A stretch of 10,024 bases of DNA, from the NCBI RefSeq assembly GCF_001983105.1, contig NZ_MOMC01000058.1, positions 36,902-46,925 on the forward strand, written 5' to 3'. The position numbers were made by a program, and so were the translations under genes. This document shows, one piece after another, positions 2,543 through 9,833 of this stretch (positions within the stretch are counted from its first letter, which is position 1; each line of letters begins with the position of its first letter). Under the pieces are notes generated by a model. That model was not told the origin of the DNA. It worked only from the letters and a program-made list of their open reading frames with translations, and did not search any database. The DNA comes from Pseudofrankia asymbiotica (GTDB taxonomy: Bacteria; Actinomycetota; Actinomycetes; Frankiales; Frankiaceae).

Positions 2543-3580
2543 TTACCGGCGCCCGGCGTGCCCGACGCCCGGGCGCTGGCGGTCGGGCCCGGCCGCGCGG
2601 GTGCGGGTGATGGGTGCCGGGCCGAGGGTGGGCACCAGGCCGGGCGCGGGCGCGGGACGGCTGGCGGGCGCGGGACGGGGCGCGGGCGCGGACCGGGGCG
2701 CGGGCTGCGGGTTGAACAGGTAGCGCTGGACGATTGTCGCGACGTCCCACAGGTACGGGTTGGCGAACATCGTGATGTGGTCGCCGGGGATGACGGCGGT
2801 GGTCAGGTCCGCGACGCCCGTGTTCTCCCAGCCGAGGCAGGGCGACGTGGACAGGCGCAGCTGGGACGGCTGGCCCCACGGGTTCGCCGGGTTGGCCGGG
2901 CGGATGAGGACCACGGGCAGGTCGGACGGCGGCGGGCTGTAGGCCGCGTAGGCACGCACGGCGGCCGCGTAGGTGTCGACGGCGTCGAGCAGGTGGTCCT
3001 CGTAGTCGTCGGGATCGGTGGCGCCGAGCGCGCGGGCGATCGCGGCGCCCTGCGTGCTGAGAGGCACCCCGTGGTCGACGCCGCAGCGGCAGGCGCCCTG
3101 CCAGACACAGGCCAGGTGGCGCATCCGGGCGAGCTCGCGGACCGCCAGCTTGGGGTTGTCGGCCGGTGGGGCCTGCCCGGGCAGCGGCAGCGCGGCGTCG
3201 AACAGGAACACCCGGGCCACCGGCTGGCCGAGGCCGCGCAGCAGCCGGCCCAGCTCGTAGGCGACGACCCCGCCGAACCCGTACCCGCCCAGCTGGTAGG
3301 GGCCGCCTCCGGGCTGGTCGAGCAGCACCGAGGGCAGCAGGTGCACCGCCATCGCGCGGACGTCGGCGAGCGGTGTGCGGGCGCCGTCGCGGCCCGGCAG
3401 GTCGAGCCCCCGGCAGACGGTGCTGACGCTGAGCGCGCCGGCGAGCGGGAGACCGGGGTGCGGTGGGCCTTCCAGGCCGCCGACGAGGAACAGCGGCGGC
3501 GGGCGGCGGCTCCTCGTCGCCGCGCCGGCGGGCGCACGCCGGGGGGCGGGCCGGGGCGCGGGGCGGGTGGCCACGGGCAT
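2543..3580 (-). CDS. Stand-alone NRPS/PKS-type thioesterase-fold protein lacking the catalytic serine
   Basis: The 345-residue product has an alpha/beta-hydrolase thioesterase domain of the NRPS/PKS type (about residues 28-290), with Pro/Ala/Arg-rich ends. Recognisable blocks are PPLFLVGGLEG (28-38), GPYQLGGYGFGGVVAYELGRLL (93-114), VARVFLFDAALP (121-132) and IPGDHITMF (264-272). The nucleophile elbow is normally G-[YH]-S-F-G-G, but position 101 is Gly (codon GGG, 3278-3280). The triad Asp (D128, 27 residues on, the same spacing as in surfactin TE) and His (H268) are retained. The usual His-Gly after the first strand is also Gly-Gly (VGGLEG). The lid region holds C158, C164, C166 and H170. 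Such proteins normally release or edit thioester-bound acyl or peptide chains; without Ser this one is probably not a hydrolase. I chose ATG 3580 because it lies 11 nt after the upstream stop and the earlier frame overlaps that gene; no strong ribosome-binding site is seen. It is the last gene of the block. Confidence 0.82.
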   Translation of the reverse strand: MPVATRPAPRPAPRRAPAGAATRSRRPPPLFLVGGLEGPPHPGLPLAGALSVSTVCRGLDLPGRDGARTPLADVRAMAVHLLPSVLLDQPGGGPYQLGGYGFGGVVAYELGRLLRGLGQPVARVFLFDAALPLPGQAPPADNPKLAVRELARMRHLACVWQGACRCGVDHGVPLSTQGAAIARALGATDPDDYEDHLLDAVDTYAAAVRAYAAYSPPPSDLPVVLIRPANPANPWGQPSQLRLSTSPCLGWENTGVADLTTAVIPGDHITMFANPYLWDVATIVQRYLFNPQPAPRSAPAPRPAPASRPAPAPGLVPTLGPAPITRTRAAGPDRQRPGVGHAGRR

Positions 3581-3591
3581 GTCGGTGGGCT

Positions 3592-4521
3592 TCAATCCGG
3601 GCCTGCCCAGGTGACGGTGACACGGCCGGCGGCGACGCGGCCGGCGCTCACGGCGGACAGGACGGCGAACGTGGCCGCCGGTGACGTCGCCGAGGCGACC
3701 CGTGGCCTTGCATGCCAGGCGGCCGGGGCCGGGGCCGGGCGGTGGCCTGGCGACATCGGTGACGGCGAGGCCGGCGACGGCGGGATCGGCGACCGGGGGC
3801 GGGGCGCGGGCAGGTAGGGCGAGCGCACCGCGGTGGACAGGCCCATCCGGCCGACGAGCAGCGTGACCTGGTTCCCGGCGGCGCGTACGGCGGCGCGCCA
3901 CTCGACCGGGATCGTGTGGCTGAGCCGCTCGATCCCCTGCCGCCCGTCGGCGCGCGGATGGACCAGGTCGAGGAGGGCCGGGCCGATCCTGACCGTCCAG
4001 CCGGCCACGAACGGCGGGTCGGCCCGCAGCGACGCGTGCAGCGCGAGCCCGGTGGCGAGGGCGTGCGACACCGCCGGGTCGATGAGCTCCCCGGGCCGCA
4101 ACCTGCCAGGGTCGCCGGGGGCGCGCGGGTCGGTCGTCATCAGGTCGTCATCGTCATCCACGGCGAGCAGCGGCTGCGGCCGGCAGCCGGTCAGCGCCGC
4201 CGTGCCGATGCCCAGCAGGTCCGCGTAGACGATGCTCGACCCGCTGGCGGCGAGCTCCGCGTCCGCGAGCGCCGCCGGCGCGACGGTGACCGCGGACGGG
4301 GCGCACTCGGCGTGGACGAGCTGGACGCGCCGCACGAGGCGGTGCGGGTAGCGGCGCAGCACCAGCGACGTCGCCTCGCCCGTCGCGAGGTCGCCCTCGC
4401 CCTCGCAGACCGAGCACCGGTAGGTACTGGGGTGCGGCCCGTGGCGCAGCGCCGCGAGCAGGTCGGCCGGCAGGAGGGCGGCGACCGTGGGGTCGACGCG
4501 CAGGTCACGCACACTCGTCAC
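3592..4521 (-). CDS. Unrecognised protein with a CxxC...HxxC putative zinc site
   Basis: I do not recognise this 309-residue protein. Near the N-terminus, C36-S-V-C39 is followed by H70-A-E-C73, a pattern that could bind one zinc in a small ribbon or treble-clef-like unit. The middle (about 75-210) looks globular, with helices and strands and a run of five Asp (about residues 122-126). From about residue 230 the chain becomes a Pro/Ser/Ala-rich tail ending in an Ala/Val-rich stretch. No signal peptide or clear membrane helix is seen. The start is uncertain: GTG 4521 overlaps the upstream gene by 17 nt, GTG 4512 by 8 nt, and GTG 4569 by 65 nt. All imply translational coupling. It sits between the Pro/Ala/Ser-tailed protein and the thioesterase-like gene, so the three are probably co-expressed. 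Function is unknown. Confidence 0.75.
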   Translation of the reverse strand: MTSVRDLRVDPTVAALLPADLLAALRHGPHPSTYRCSVCEGEGDLATGEATSLVLRRYPHRLVRRVQLVHAECAPSAVTVAPAALADAELAASGSSIVYADLLGIGTAALTGCRPQPLLAVDDDDDLMTTDPRAPGDPGRLRPGELIDPAVSHALATGLALHASLRADPPFVAGWTVRIGPALLDLVHPRADGRQGIERLSHTIPVEWRAAVRAAGNQVTLLVGRMGLSTAVRSPYLPAPRPRSPIPPSPASPSPMSPGHRPAPAPAAWHARPRVASATSPAATFAVLSAVSAGRVAAGRVTVTWAGPD

Positions 4522-5359
4522 CGGCGCGACGCCCGTCCACCAGCGTGCCGGTGGCGGGGCTCCTCGCACCGTCGCCAGCGGTGTGCGGCTTGGTGAGACC
4601 GCCGACGCGGCGGCCTTCGACGGAGCCGGCCGCCGAGCGTGGCTCGGTGACAGCGGCCGCGCCGCGTGCGCCCGCGGGAACCCTCGCCACGCGACGGCCG
4701 TCCCCGCGGCGGCCGGCGGCGGCCGGCTCGGCGACGGCCGGGGCGCGCTGGCCGAGGGGCCGGGCGGCGACGCGGTGGTCGTCTCCCCGCGCGAGCACGG
4801 CGGGCGGCTCGGCGGGCACTCCTGACGAGGAGGGTCCGGACGCGGAGGGTCCGGACGCGGAGGGCATCGGCGCCGCGGGCACTGGCGCGGAGGGGACGGG
4901 TGTCGGCGGGACGGCGGCGCTGGGCACGGGGATGGCGGGGGCGGGGACCGAGGCGCCGGGACCGGGGGCGTCGTCGTCGGTGGCGGGAAACGCGGTGAGG
5001 GTGTCCGGGATGGAATGGCGCAGGTCGGACAGCTCCGGGTACGGGATGCCGTCGGCGGCCTCGCGGCCGGCGAGCAGGAGGGCGTGGGCGGCGGTCACCC
5101 ATTCGGTGGTGTCATCGGAGCCGGCCGCCTGGCAGACGATCGCCCAGGTGTCGAGCACCTTGGCGAGCGCGCCCGCGACGTAGGCCGGCATCCGCACGAC
5201 GACGGCGGGCAGCGCGTCGCCGCCCGGCTCGTCGGCGGCGATCAGCCGGGCTCGGTCGACGTCCACCTCCATCTCGATGACGGACAGCAGCAGTGGTAGC
5301 GCGGGGTACTCGGGCATCACCGGCGGTGCCACCGGCATCGGCCGCGTCGGAGGCTTCAT
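4505..5359 (-). CDS. Unrecognised protein with compact N-terminus and long Pro/Ala/Ser/Arg tail
   Basis: I do not recognise this 284-residue protein. Residues 15-125 look folded and mostly helical (for example VVVRMPAYVAGALAKVLDTW and a following WVTAAHALLLAGREAADG segment) with several acidic residues. From about 130 the chain is low-complexity: Pro/Ala/Val/Ser repeats (PVPSAPVPAAPMP-like), a doubled ASGPS pentapeptide, then an Arg/Ala/Gly-rich end. No signal peptide, membrane segment or enzyme motif is seen. ATG 5359 is preceded by GGAGG with a 10-nt spacing; ATG 5338 and ATG 5317 are alternatives. It follows the GTPase gene by 85 nt and its last 17 nt overlap the next gene. A role as an adaptor of the upstream conservon is conceivable from position only. 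Confidence 0.72.
   Translation of the reverse strand: MKPPTRPMPVAPPVMPEYPALPLLLSVIEMEVDVDRARLIAADEPGGDALPAVVVRMPAYVAGALAKVLDTWAIVCQAAGSDDTTEWVTAAHALLLAGREAADGIPYPELSDLRHSIPDTLTAFPATDDDAPGPGASVPAPAIPVPSAAVPPTPVPSAPVPAAPMPSASGPSASGPSSSGVPAEPPAVLARGDDHRVAARPLGQRAPAVAEPAAAGRRGDGRRVARVPAGARGAAAVTEPRSAAGSVEGRRVGGLTKPHTAGDGARSPATGTLVDGRRAGDECA
4829..4864. repeat. 15-bp tandem repeat inside a coding tail
   Basis: Two perfect copies of GGAGGGTCCGGACGC (4829-4843 and 4844-4858) are followed by a 6-nt partial third copy. The unit contains the palindrome TCCGGA. It is a multiple of three and keeps frame, giving a doubled Ala-Ser-Gly-Pro-Ser in the tail of the 284-residue protein. It looks like slippage in a disordered region. 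Confidence 0.85.
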
Positions 5360-5444: not shown

Positions 5445-6146
5445 TCACGTTCTCTGCGGGGTTGGCTGGGACCGGGCGGCGCGGGCCTCTTCGGCGAGGG
5501 TCGCTTCCAGGGCGTGGCGGACGAGGGCGATGAGTGCCGCCCGGGTGGACGGCTGGTGGCGGGCGTCGCACATGACCACCGGGTGCTCGATGTCGAGCGC
5601 CTTGCGCACGTCGGTGACCGGGTGGACGAGCGCGCCGTCGAACTGGTTGACGGCGACGACGAACGGCAGCTTGCGGTCCTCGAAGAAGTCGATCGCGGCG
5701 AAACAGTCGGGCAGGCGGCGGGTGTCGGCGAGCACGACCGCGCCGACCGCGCCGACCGTCAGCTCGTCCCACATGAACCAGAAGCGGTCCTGGCCGGGCG
5801 TGCCGAACAGGTAGAGGACGACGTCCTGCTCGGGCAGCGTGATCCGGCCGAAGTCCATCGCGACGGTCGTGGTGGTCTTCCCCGCGATCCTGCTGGTGTC
5901 GTCGACGCCGACGCTCGCCGCGGTCATGTGCGCCTCGGTCGTCAACGGCGGGATCTCGCTGACGGAGCCGACGAACGTTGTCTTGCCGACCCCGAAACCA
6001 CCGGCGATGATGATCTTCAAGGGGGTGGTGGTGACATCCGGGTCGGCGTCCCCGCCGGCCGGGCCGTTCGGGAGGCCACCCTGGCGGGTCGGGCCATTCG
6101 GGGGGCCACCCTGGCGGGTCGGGCCGCTAGAGCCGCTGAAGGCCAT
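5445..6146 (-). CDS. cvnD: Conservon GTP/ATP-binding protein (CvnD-like, MglA/Ras-type small GTPase)
   Basis: The 233-residue product is the small GTPase of a conservon. After a Gly/Pro-rich N-terminal extension of about 42 residues comes the P-loop GGFGVGKTT (49-57). An AMDFGRI block follows (97-102), then LFGTPGQDRF (113-122) as the switch II/G3 equivalent, and VNQFDG (166-171) as the base-specificity NKxD equivalent, with Gln in place of Lys. These variants are usual for this family. In Streptomyces, CvnD proteins bind guanine nucleotide and assemble with CvnA-C at the membrane. ATG 6146 has AAGGTG 5 nt upstream and overlaps the end of the DUF742 gene by 20 nt, implying translational coupling. 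The N-terminal extension contains an in-frame 30-bp duplication (6061-6120). The family call is very secure; its signalling partner outside the operon is unknown. Confidence 0.94.
   Translation of the reverse strand: MAFSGSSGPTRQGGPPNGPTRQGGLPNGPAGGDADPDVTTTPLKIIIAGGFGVGKTTFVGSVSEIPPLTTEAHMTAASVGVDDTSRIAGKTTTTVAMDFGRITLPEQDVVLYLFGTPGQDRFWFMWDELTVGAVGAVVLADTRRLPDCFAAIDFFEDRKLPFVVAVNQFDGALVHPVTDVRKALDIEHPVVMCDARHQPSTRAALIALVRHALEATLAEEARAARSQPTPQRT
6061..6120. repeat. 30-bp in-frame tandem duplication in the GTPase N-terminus
   Basis: Positions 6061-6090 and 6091-6120 match at 28 of 30 bases, with differences at unit positions 6 and 13. On the coding strand the unit gives a ten-residue repeat, PTRQGG-P/L-PNG, twice, just before the Ras-like fold. 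A recent local duplication in a disordered leader is the simplest reading. Confidence 0.9.
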
Positions 6147-6510
6147 CGAGCACCTTTCGGAGCAGTTCGGAATCGGGCCGCCAGTCGGGGCGCTCGGGCC
6201 GATGCACGACGACGAGACCGTCGCGGGCCATGTCGGCGACCAGCACCTGAGTCACACCCAGCGGCAGGTCAAGGCGCGCCGAGATCTCCGCGACGGACTG
6301 GAGCTGGCGGCAGAGGAAGGCGATCTCACGCTGCTCGGGGGGCATGCCGGCAGGTGGGCGCCGTGCGAGGGCCACCCCGTGCGAGGTGGTTGCGACCAAC
6401 GCGACCAGTTCCAACGCGCTGTGAGGCCGGGTACGCCCGCCCGTGACGGCGTAAGGGCGGACGACCGGTCCGGCTGCCTCGTCGGGCAGCTCCTCGTCGT
6501 CCCGAGGCAA
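6127..6510 (-). CDS. cvnC: Conservon DUF742 protein (CvnC-like), TTG start
   Basis: The 127-residue product belongs to the DUF742 family. It has the signature RPYAVTGGRT (18-27) and a C-terminal winged-helix-like part (about 60-104) with the family pattern SVAEISARLDLPLGVTQVLVADMARDGLV. DUF742 proteins are cytosolic conservon components thought to bridge the sensor kinase/roadblock pair and the GTPase. The start appears to be TTG 6510. No ATG or GTG lies upstream in this frame before the preceding gene, and GGAGG (6525-6521) lies 10 nt upstream. A GTG at 6517 is in another frame and does not give this protein. The gene begins 16 nt after the roadblock gene and overlaps the GTPase start by 20 nt. 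Confidence 0.93.
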   Translation of the reverse strand: MPRDDEELPDEAAGPVVRPYAVTGGRTRPHSALELVALVATTSHGVALARRPPAGMPPEQREIAFLCRQLQSVAEISARLDLPLGVTQVLVADMARDGLVVVHRPERPDWRPDSELLRKVLDGLQRL

Positions 6511-6526: not shown

Positions 6527-6919
6527 TCAGACCTGGACGCGCATCGGCGGGGTCAGGACCTGGCCGGCGCGCGTCACGAGTCGGGCCATCTCGAAGGCGA
6601 TCATTCCCGGATCGGCGGCGGCCGAGGCGGCGACCGCCAGGCAGGACCCCTCGCCGATCGCGGCGACGAACAGATAGCCGTCGTCCATTTCGACAATGGT
6701 CTGGCGAACGTCCCCGCCGCTCATGTACCGGGACGCGCCGAGCGCGAGGGAGCGGAATCCGGAGGCGACGGCCGCGATGTGGTCGCCGCCCTCCCGGGAA
6801 AGGCCGGAGGAACGGGCCAGCTGTAGACCGTCAGAGGACAGCGCCACCGCCCACTGGACGTCGGAGATACGCCTTTCCAGATCATTCAGCAGGAATCCGA
6901 GATTACCGGTGGGAGGCAT
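6527..6919 (-). CDS. cvnB: Conservon roadblock/LC7 domain protein (CvnB-like)
   Basis: The 130-residue product is a single roadblock/LC7 domain. Family landmarks are VQWAVALSSDGLQLARSSGL (21-40), the helix DHIAAVASGFRSLALGAS (46-63), RQTIVEMDDGYLFVAAIGEGSCLAV (72-96) and the closing helix MIAFEMARLVTRAG (106-119). Roadblock proteins partner small Ras/MglA-like GTPases, which fits the GTPase two genes downstream. I chose ATG 6919: AAAGGA sits 6 nt upstream, and the start overlaps the kinase stop by 17 nt. A GTG at 6940 would add seven residues and is less likely. Confidence 0.94.
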   Translation of the reverse strand: MPPTGNLGFLLNDLERRISDVQWAVALSSDGLQLARSSGLSREGGDHIAAVASGFRSLALGASRYMSGGDVRQTIVEMDDGYLFVAAIGEGSCLAVAASAAADPGMIAFEMARLVTRAGQVLTPPMRVQV

Positions 6920-9833
6920 CGCCCATCCTTTCGTCGTCACCGGGAAGGCCTTGGCGGAAGCCGGCCCGGAAAGAGGTGACCAGGTTGCGAGCCTTCTCGG
7001 GATCCGGCCCGGCGCCCTTGGCCGCCGGCGTCGCCGCGGCGGCCACGCGCCGGCCGCCGCGCAGCTCGGCGGAAAGATGCTCGCCGCGGCGGCGGTGCGG
7101 CAGGTGGCCGAGCGGCGGCTCGACCAGGCCCGCCGCGCCAGCCAGGGTGGTCGCCCCCGTCAGAGCCGATGACCCCCCAGGGCCGGACGTGCCCCCCGGG
7201 GCCGTCGGAACCTGCGGGCGCGGCGCGAACGGCGCGGCCGGCCTCTGCGCGGCCGGCCTCGGAGAAGAAGCAGGCCTTGGCGCCGCCGGCCGCGCTCCGG
7301 CCGGTCCCGCCTCCGCGGCCGGGCTCTTCGGTCCCGCCGGCCCGGCGGGCGCCGCGGGTCCCGTCGCCGTCGGTCCCGCCAGGGTCAGCGGTCCCGTCGG
7401 TGCGGGTGGTCCGGCTGGCGCCCCTGGTCCCGTTGGCGCGGCTGGCCCGGTGGGACCGGCCGGTGGGCGCTGGGTGGGTCCGGACGGGGAGCCGACCGTG
7501 ATCGGCGGGAGCTCCAGGGTGTTGCCCCAGTCGGCCCGGACGGCGTCGAACAGCGTCGGGCCCGTCGCGCCGGCGGCCGCGGGAGCCACCTCCTCGGAAC
7601 CCGCCTCGTCCGAGCCCGGCCGGCCAGCGCCGTTCGCGCCGTCCGCGCCGGCGCCGTTCTGGCCGTCCGAGGTGGATTCCACCCCGGGGCGCCGCGGCAG
7701 GGGTCGGAAGAAGCTCTCGCGCACGGTGAGGACCTGCGACGGGTCGGCGTCGTAGTCGACGTCGAGACCGTCGAGGTACGCCCCGTCGTCCGCCAGGCTG
7801 TCCTCGCCCGCCCCGTTCCCGGTGGCGGCGTGACCGCCGTTGCCCACCGCGAACGGGTTGTCGTAGCCCACGCCGACCGCGTCGAGGCGCTCCAGGGCGC
7901 TGATCCGGTCGAGCGCGGCGCGCAGCGGGTCGTCGACCACCGGCGGCACGGCGGCGCTGTCGTCGACGAGCACCTCCGAGGGCAGCAGCACGACCGCCGT
8001 GACACCGCCGTAGGCGCTGCGGGTCAGCTGCACCTCGATCCCGTGCCGAGCCGCCAGGTTCGCGACGACCCACAGGCCGAGCTTGTCGCCCTGCTGCTCC
8101 GGGTTGAACGGCGGCGGGTCGGCCAGGCGGGCGTTCAGCTCGGTCATCGTCTCGTTGACGATCCCGATGCCGCGGTCGGAGATCTCGACCGCGACGCCGG
8201 TGCCGACCGGGCTGCCGGACACCGTGACCATGGTGTTCTCCGGCGACATCTGGGTGGCGTTCTCCACCAGCTCGGCGAGCAGGTGGATGACGTCGCCGAC
8301 GACCGGGCCGACGATCCGGATGTCGATGGCGGAGCTCACCTCGACCCGGGTGTAGGCCTCCACCTCGGCGACGGCGGCGCGCATCGCGTCGACCAGCTTC
8401 ACCGGCGAGCGGAACACCCGGCTCGGCCGGCCGCCCGACAGGGCGATCTGGCCCTCGACCTCGCGGCGCATGCGGGTCGCGAGGTGGTCAAGCCTGAACA
8501 GCCGGTCGAGCATGTCCGGGTCCTGCTGGTCGCGCTCCAGGTCGGTGATCAGCTTCAGCTGGCGGTGGATCAGCGTCTGGCTGCGCCGCGCCAGGTTGCG
8601 CATCGACGCGGACAGCGAGTGCTGCGCCGCGACCTCCGTCGCCGACTGGACGGCCGCCGCGTAGACCTCGCGCAGCGAGCGGGCGACGTCCCCGATCTCG
8701 TCGGCGGGCCCGCGAGCCATGTTGTCCGCCCCGATGTCGGCGTCGACGGGACGGCGGTCGCGGATCGCGGCCGTCACCGCAGGCAGCCGCTGCTCGGCCA
8801 TGTCAAGCGCGTCCTCGCGCAGGGCCCGCAGCTGCCGGGCGAGCCGACGCGCGATCACGACCGAGACGGCCACCGTCAGCACCATCACGATGCCGGCGAG
8901 CAGACCGGCGAGCCACGCCCGGGTCCTGGCCGACGAGGCGAGCGTGCTGCTGCGGTTGGCGAGGTCCAGGGTGATCTGTGCCTCGACGTTGCGCAGCTGC
9001 TCGATCTTCGCGTTGGCGGCGGCCAGCCAGTCGACGCCGGTGACGTCGAAGGTCCCGTTGGTCTGCGCGGCGCGCAGCGCTCGGTCCTGCAGCGAGGTCA
9101 CCGGGCCGAGCGTCGGGCCGACGGCCTGGTCGTAGAGCTGACGCTGGCCCTGGTCGGCGTAGACGTCGAACTGGCTGACCCAGGCCGATTCCGCGCCGCT
9201 CGCGGCACGGATGAGGCCGAAGTTGTCGGGGTCGAGGCGGCGCAGGATCAGCAGGATGCTGACGTAGCCGCGCTGCTGGGCGGACTGCTCGGCGACGTTG
9301 CTGATCGCCGTCAGGGCGGCGACCGTGCGGACCACCTCGGGGTCCGTCGTGCCGACGCCGGCCTGGGCCGGGGTGACGCCGAGCCAGGCGCGCACGATGC
9401 CGTTGAAGACGTCCGTGCCCGTGCCGGGCTTGAGCTCGTGCGCGTCGATCTGGCGGCGCAGACCGGGCAGCTTGTCGGTCTGGGTCTTGGCGGCGTCCAC
9501 GGCGGCGACCAGGCGCGCGTCGTCCGGCAGTGAGTCGGCGACGGTCCTGACCTCGGTGTACGCCCGGTCCACCGGTGCGCGGGAGGCCGCGGTCTCCGCC
9601 GCCAGCGCCCGGTACCCCGAGCCGATGTACGACGACGACGCGTAGCGCTCCTGCGACAACGCCCGGACCAGCGCGTTCACCTTGATTGTGAGCTGGGCGG
9701 CGGCCTGGCTGCGGCTGGCCGCGTGCGCCGCGCCCGCCTGCCCGGTCACGAGCAGCGTGGCGAGCCCAGCGAGCGCCAGCAGCGGCACGACCAACGCGAC
9801 CGCCAACCGGTACCGAACCGGCCAGTTCTCCAT
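6903..9833 (-). CDS. cvnA: Conservon NIT-domain sensor histidine kinase (CvnA-like)
   Basis: The 976-residue product is a membrane sensor kinase. A short cytoplasmic start is followed by TM1 (about 9-30), then an extracytoplasmic helical sensor resembling the NIT (nitrate/nitrite-sensing) domain (about 45-285, with ALSQERYASSSYIG at 58-71). TM2 (about 306-328) and a HAMP-like linker (about 329-400) follow. The dimerisation helix carries a likely phospho-acceptor H450 in RLDHLATRMRR. The ATPase core has the N box ELVENAT (N525), G1 ISDRGIGI (551-558) and a G2-like KLGLWVVANLAARHG (584-598). The ligand cannot be read, and nitrate is not implied by the domain name. The last 350 residues are disordered: acidic, then Gly/Pro-rich (about 785-846), then Ala/Arg-rich, ending in NLVTSFRAGFRQGL. 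I chose ATG 9833 because GGAG lies 4 nt upstream and TM1 follows; the frame stays open to 9986. It is the first gene of the conservon. Confidence 0.95.
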   Translation of the reverse strand: MENWPVRYRLAVALVVPLLALAGLATLLVTGQAGAAHAASRSQAAAQLTIKVNALVRALSQERYASSSYIGSGYRALAAETAASRAPVDRAYTEVRTVADSLPDDARLVAAVDAAKTQTDKLPGLRRQIDAHELKPGTGTDVFNGIVRAWLGVTPAQAGVGTTDPEVVRTVAALTAISNVAEQSAQQRGYVSILLILRRLDPDNFGLIRAASGAESAWVSQFDVYADQGQRQLYDQAVGPTLGPVTSLQDRALRAAQTNGTFDVTGVDWLAAANAKIEQLRNVEAQITLDLANRSSTLASSARTRAWLAGLLAGIVMVLTVAVSVVIARRLARQLRALREDALDMAEQRLPAVTAAIRDRRPVDADIGADNMARGPADEIGDVARSLREVYAAAVQSATEVAAQHSLSASMRNLARRSQTLIHRQLKLITDLERDQQDPDMLDRLFRLDHLATRMRREVEGQIALSGGRPSRVFRSPVKLVDAMRAAVAEVEAYTRVEVSSAIDIRIVGPVVGDVIHLLAELVENATQMSPENTMVTVSGSPVGTGVAVEISDRGIGIVNETMTELNARLADPPPFNPEQQGDKLGLWVVANLAARHGIEVQLTRSAYGGVTAVVLLPSEVLVDDSAAVPPVVDDPLRAALDRISALERLDAVGVGYDNPFAVGNGGHAATGNGAGEDSLADDGAYLDGLDVDYDADPSQVLTVRESFFRPLPRRPGVESTSDGQNGAGADGANGAGRPGSDEAGSEEVAPAAAGATGPTLFDAVRADWGNTLELPPITVGSPSGPTQRPPAGPTGPAAPTGPGAPAGPPAPTGPLTLAGPTATGPAAPAGPAGPKSPAAEAGPAGARPAAPRPASSPRPAAQRPAAPFAPRPQVPTAPGGTSGPGGSSALTGATTLAGAAGLVEPPLGHLPHRRRGEHLSAELRGGRRVAAAATPAAKGAGPDPEKARNLVTSFRAGFRQGLPGDDERMGDASHR
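7296..7481 (-). repeat. Gly-Pro-Ala-rich, collagen-like low-complexity segment in the kinase tail
   Basis: Residues about 785-846 of the kinase run as GPx and APx triplets (GPTGPAAPTGPGAPAGPP and onward), roughly a six-residue period of GPxAPx. It is not a strict collagen (Gly-X-Y)n series, because Gly is missing from alternate triplets. It lies on the cytoplasmic side after the ATPase domain and is probably a flexible tether. Confidence 0.75.

Follow-up and report, generated by a model that had tools for sequence, protein, structure and literature searches.

A thioesterase-fold protein without its catalytic nucleophile as a candidate accessory component of one conservon subtype

Introduction

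In conservons (actinobacterial G-protein systems, AGPS) that carry cvnE (encoding a cytochrome P450) or cvnF (encoding a GAF-domain protein), an additional gene lies after cvnA-B-C-D in the same orientation. In PMC13343842, this fifth conservon gene is described as typically belonging to one of two classes, and CvnE and CvnF are stated to be overwhelmingly paired with kinases lacking a NIT domain. The same paper reports that CvnF8 binds CvnA8, raising its ATPase activity and autophosphorylation, and describes the input mechanisms of conservons as largely unexplored (PMC13343842). The present report concerns a 10,024-nucleotide stretch of DNA (contig NZ_MOMC01000058.1, positions 36,902 to 46,925; hereafter the window), in which cvnA-B-C-D genes are likewise followed by extra genes on the same strand. 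The last of these starts with an ATG at 3580 and ends at 2543 (minus strand). Unlike the products of cvnE and cvnF, the accessory protein that we propose here appears to be a dead thioesterase (TE).

A second comparison is with the TE domains integrated into non-ribosomal peptide synthetases (NRPS) and polyketide synthases (PKS), among which the TE of AB3403 (4zxh) is the closest structure. The TE protein of the window differs from these domains in having neither the nucleophile nor the HPxGG loop, in a triad histidine that is often replaced by arginine in its family, in a new lid motif, and in being encoded by a stand-alone gene in a signalling operon. The α/β-hydrolase fold has been reused in signalling by plant GID1 and by bacterial RsbQ, the latter of which keeps its catalytic triad. 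Both belong to families different from that of the TE protein.

Results

The TE protein has 345 residues. Its sole Pfam match is to PF00975 (Thioesterase; 67.2 bits compared with a cut-off of 26.4), which covers residues 29-273, and a low-complexity, proline-rich tail begins at about residue 292. We used an AlphaFold2 model of the 274-residue core, calculated from a 72-row alignment, which has a predicted local distance difference test (pLDDT) score of 90.8; an earlier run with the full-length protein and a 17-member alignment gave 55.7 and was not used. The structure matches listed for the model are TE domains or proteins containing one. By fold and ancestry, the protein thus belongs to the PF00975 family, given a profile score above the cut-off and a TE fold in the model. 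The third-position GC content of the gene (0.95) resembles that of the four neighbouring genes tested (0.89-0.94), so its codon-position composition is locally typical of a real gene.

Among about 5.8 billion proteins searched, 17 family members were found, the window protein included. The protein searches scored the 7,989-7,997 candidates sharing most words, and distant members could therefore be missed; a profile search for further members added only P0019, a distant NRPS-type protein. The 120 thioesterases listed among 239 matches to P0019 served as the comparison set. An earlier note on this DNA had pointed out that the catalytic serine in the TE elbow is replaced by glycine, and this is borne out: codon 101 (3280..3278, minus strand; elbow LGGYGFGG) is GGG, which the codon table places at least two base changes from any serine codon, as the note had also said. 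The aligned nucleophile column contains Gly (12), Ala (4) or Asp (1) in the 17 family members, compared with Ser (118) or Cys (2) in the 120 comparison TEs. Given that Ser or Cys occurs in all of the comparison TEs and in none of the family, the glycine is not a chance event. For 55 hand-chosen members of the comparison set, the aligned column contains 54 Ser and one Cys. A count by regular expression in all 120 (116 Ser, 2 Cys, 1 Asp, 1 unmatched) can hit the wrong site and is superseded by the aligned columns. We also assembled a set of 23 rows, some of them near-identical, from the 11 genome copies described below and 12 of the 17 proteins (P0002, P0003, P0007, P0009 and P0017 were left out, being represented by genome copies). 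Its nucleophile column contains Gly (17), Ala (5) and Asp (1). An elbow alignment of homologues, along the lines suggested in the earlier note, returned Gly, Ala or Asp, but never Ser. The aspartate is found in a copy from a metagenome-assembled genome (MAG; L034, G007:C800), where the elbow reads GVDFGG. Cysteine instead of serine was seen in the TE elbows of two database proteins (P0059 and P0099) and of an Eremiobacterota NRPS protein (L021, 7060-9666; GGFCASG).

The other two triad residues had been described as intact. This is correct for the aspartate: Asp128 (GAC; 3199..3197, minus strand), which is located 27 residues past the nucleophile position, is invariant in the 17 family members, and the same column contains Asp in 119 of the comparison TEs and Glu in one. 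The histidine, near the end of the protein, is kept in the window copy (His268, CAC; 2779..2777, minus strand) but is not a family feature, the column containing His in seven and Arg in ten of the 17 members (His in 118 and a gap in two of the 120 comparison TEs). The HPxGG loop sits by the oxyanion hole in active thioesterases. In the TE protein it is replaced by GGLEGP (residues 34-39; 3464..3481, minus strand), and position 34 is a histidine in 115/120 comparison TEs, but in 0/14 family sequences covering it. The replacement is itself conserved, being mostly GGLEG (13/14, or a close variant). Many positions outside the former active site are invariant in the family, whereas the active-site residues vary. 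The TE protein therefore has neither the Ser/Cys nucleophile nor the HPxGG loop of a catalytic NRPS/PKS TE, and the best-supported account of these sequences is that the family proteins no longer hydrolyse thioesters. In a phylogenetic tree, 22 family rows form one fully supported clade that is separate from eight outgroup TEs. This topology fits a single catalytic loss, although midpoint rooting and the length of the branch mean that it is no proof.

The lid of the TE protein contains a family-specific motif, CVWQGACRCGVDH (3071..3109, minus strand), which includes C158, C164, C166, D169 and H170. The consensus C-x-W-[QH]-x-x-C-x-C-G-[VI]-D-H is present in 17/17 proteins and 23/23 rows, and no cysteine occurs at the three lid-motif positions in any of the 120 comparison TEs. 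In the AlphaFold2 model, C158 is located in the end of a lid helix, and C164, C166 and H170 are in the following loop (block-mean pLDDT of 83 and 77, respectively). Judging from their spacing, the three cysteines and the histidine could bind a metal ion.

The genes preceding the TE gene on the minus strand are CvnA-B-C-D in the order of a conservon (AGPS), from 9830 to 5445. CvnA (6903..9830) is a histidine kinase with a NIT domain (143.4 bits) and a HATPase_c domain (42.7 bits); CvnB (6527..6940) is a Roadblock/LC7 protein (65 bits); CvnC (6127..6510) contains DUF742 (115.2 bits); and CvnD (5445..6146) is a small GTPase (PF03029, 107.7 bits). Two further minus-strand genes, U1 (4505..5359) and U2 (3592..4569), are located between CvnD and the TE gene, and neither has a match in Pfam or NCBIfam. 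The end of U2 is separated from the start of the TE gene by 11 bases; the listed U2 open reading frame overlaps U1, and its true start may be downstream of 4569. None of the TE protein, U1 and U2 has a Pfam match to the cytochrome P450 domain that defines CvnE, or to the GAF domain of CvnF. CvnF is further defined by a CvnA without NIT domain, whereas NIT is present in 10/10 CvnA kinases of TE-linked conservons.

The TE family was found in all eight genomes searched of the window's genus, three of which contain two copies (11 copies in total), and, at E 1e-20, in none of 50 other relatives searched. Among 393 genomes drawn from the class, the family occurred in eight, all from the window's genus. 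The number of candidates scored per genome was at most 36 in the TE search, 42 for U1, 38 for U2 and 5 in the draw of 393. The eight genomes presumably belong to Pseudofrankia, a name that is carried by one family protein. CvnA-D precede the TE gene in 10/10 copies with enough flanking sequence (the window and nine other loci). U1 follows CvnD in eight of these conservons; in the other two (L028, L029) the TE gene comes directly after CvnD, and a U1 match was not found there. The window genome contains six DUF742 genes, one of which is TE-linked. Across the eight genomes there are 47 GTPase matches, and the ten nearest to the window CvnD (74-100% identical, at least 352 bits) are precisely those linked to a TE gene, whereas no TE copy adjoins any of the remaining 37 (at most 73% identity and 291 bits). 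With no serine at the nucleophile position in 17 proteins or 11 genome copies, and CvnA-D beside all ten copies, the idea in the earlier note of a pseudo-thioesterase in a signalling context is supported.

The TE gene is under purifying selection. In six close pairs, the ratio of nonsynonymous to synonymous substitution rates (dN/dS, NG86 method) is 0.19, 0.23, 0.09, 0.13, 0.22 and 0.24, a range similar to that of the kinase in these pairs (0.08-0.38). Two further TE pairs, with values of 0.39 and 0.54, are deep comparisons between paralogous groups and were not counted as close pairs. Values for U1 and U2 were discarded, as the loss of stop symbols had shifted the frames in their alignments. 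In 10 of the 11 genome copies there is no in-frame stop codon within the matched span; the MAG copy has one TGA there, yet a 298-residue protein is listed for it. The view that the open frame is not an obvious pseudogene thus stands. Serine-keeping homologues in the same synteny group together with relaxed selection, which the earlier note had named as the outcome that would undo its interpretation, are the opposite of what we found.

Discussion

On balance, we favour the interpretation that a conservon subtype of a single genus ends in the TE gene, whose product has a TE fold without thioester hydrolysis, and that the binding of a ligand or partner is relayed to CvnA or the CvnB/C/D switch. 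The TE protein is probably an enzyme turned signalling part, because the cutting residue has been lost in every relative found and because the gene comes last in one particular kind of G-protein operon. The emptied pocket and altered lid would bind a cytosolic ligand or a partner protein; given the ancestry of the fold, an acyl or pantetheine-type group is the natural candidate ligand. As in the earlier note, the protein may be imagined to bind acyl chains or carrier proteins, or to act as a scaffold. The bound state might then be passed to CvnA or the CvnB/C/D switch, by analogy with the action of CvnF8 on CvnA8, and a cytosolic input would be added to a kinase that already has a NIT domain as its sensor. 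CvnF is an imperfect parallel, as NIT is present in all ten kinases here, and the TE protein may therefore be either a second input on top of the NIT sensor or an output-side adaptor.

Several observations weigh against this interpretation. The predominant pairing of CvnE and CvnF with NIT-less kinases reported in PMC13343842 is the reverse of what is seen in the TE-linked conservons. The ligand, partner and activity of the TE protein are predictions from sequence, and Asp128 in 17/17 members, together with His in 7/17, leaves room for residual or different chemistry. The restriction to one genus holds for the genomes searched; 12 of the 17 family proteins come from database entries without a host name. 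The eleventh copy (G007, the MAG) comes from a contig of 6 kb, too short to count towards the linkage, that contains U1 and TE but no CvnD. The border of the subtype at CvnD, although clear by score (352 vs 291 bits), is narrow by identity (74% vs 73%). Finally, TE distances correlate with those of CvnA (r = 0.95), CvnB (0.91), CvnC (0.94) and CvnD (0.71), values reached by at most 1 in 2000 permutations, but linked genes share their history, so the correlation is no proof of contact and linkage alone could suffice.

A more specific proposal, which we regard as possible but doubtful, is that the TE protein belongs to a novel class of accessory proteins in conservons. It would be a catalysis-free TE fold whose lid has gained a Cys3-His metal or redox site, and would sense a cytosolic acyl/pantetheine ligand or the metal/redox state and set the Ras-like GTPase switch of a NIT-type kinase system as a second input.

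It is rather unlikely that the TE protein is a pure scaffold, which has no ligand and serves only to keep the conservon proteins assembled or positioned. A fold that is kept while its chemistry is lost would most simply be read as a role in binding alone, and the variation of the former active-site residues (Gly/Ala/Asp; His/Arg) amid many invariant positions is in line with this. However, the invariant Cys3/Asp/His motif of the lid points to a defined site and not just to a surface, and the replacement of the HPxGG loop is conserved, not drifting. Nor do we expect the TE protein to be an enzyme still, using another nucleophile or a metal-activated water molecule (involving the lid cysteines, or Asp128/His268); we consider this improbable. 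Asp128 and the three cysteines and one histidine of the lid are invariant, and the MAG copy has an aspartate at the nucleophile position, a residue that serves as the nucleophile in some α/β-hydrolases. But there is no substitute elbow residue common to the family, the triad histidine is an arginine in 10/17 members, and the HPxGG loop is gone.

The TE gene might instead belong to an adjacent biosynthetic neighbourhood, which we consider highly improbable. A 2OG-Fe(II) oxygenase (PF03171; 25-1182) is encoded downstream of the TE gene, and natural-product clusters contain both thioesterases and oxygenases of this kind. In the window, however, the two genes are separated by an MGH1-like glycoside hydrolase on the opposite strand (PF22422; 1274-2512; the glucosylglycerate hydrolase model NF047898 scores below its cut-off). 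Moreover, the oxygenase/hydrolase pair is found beside only 3/10 TE copies, those of the window, L025 and L026 (83-94% identical in the latter two), compared with 10/10 for CvnA-D; weak oxygenase matches (30-31%) are present beside two further copies. That the gene is a decaying pseudogene of a biosynthetic thioesterase, as the lost catalytic residues and the TGA in the MAG copy might suggest, is next to inconceivable and already contradicted for most copies by the ten stop-free matches, the low dN/dS values and the constant neighbourhood.

Conservons and dead enzymes are each known already; a pseudo-thioesterase as a fixed component of conservons was not found in the literature searched. This covered conservon-linked and Pseudofrankia thioesterases (titles only) and dead thioesterases or hydrolases, and the word 'thioesterase' is absent from the main text of PMC13343842. 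If the fifth gene does form a third class here, one that is derived from a disabled enzyme, linked to a single CvnA-D subtype and found with kinases that bear NIT, it would be a concrete and testable candidate for a module through which conservons receive input. It would also be a clear example of an enzyme turned signalling part inside one genus.

U1 and U2

In another genus of the family (g2; L064-L069), U1 follows CvnD without a TE gene in 6/6 genomes searched. U2 was matched in 7/58 genomes searched, all from the window's genus. Stepwise growth, from the conservon to the addition of U1 and then of TE and U2, would fit this distribution. One conservon (L063; genome G004:C98, about 5670-10520) contains CvnA, B, C, U1 and U2, with only weak matches to residues 171-226 of CvnD, and has no TE gene. 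This hints at a dependence of TE on CvnD, although only one such locus was seen and it could reflect an assembly error. L030-L033 each have two neighbouring U1 matches. U2 contains a CxxC...HxxC stretch, a possible zinc-binding site, and in L033 it is matched in three pieces.
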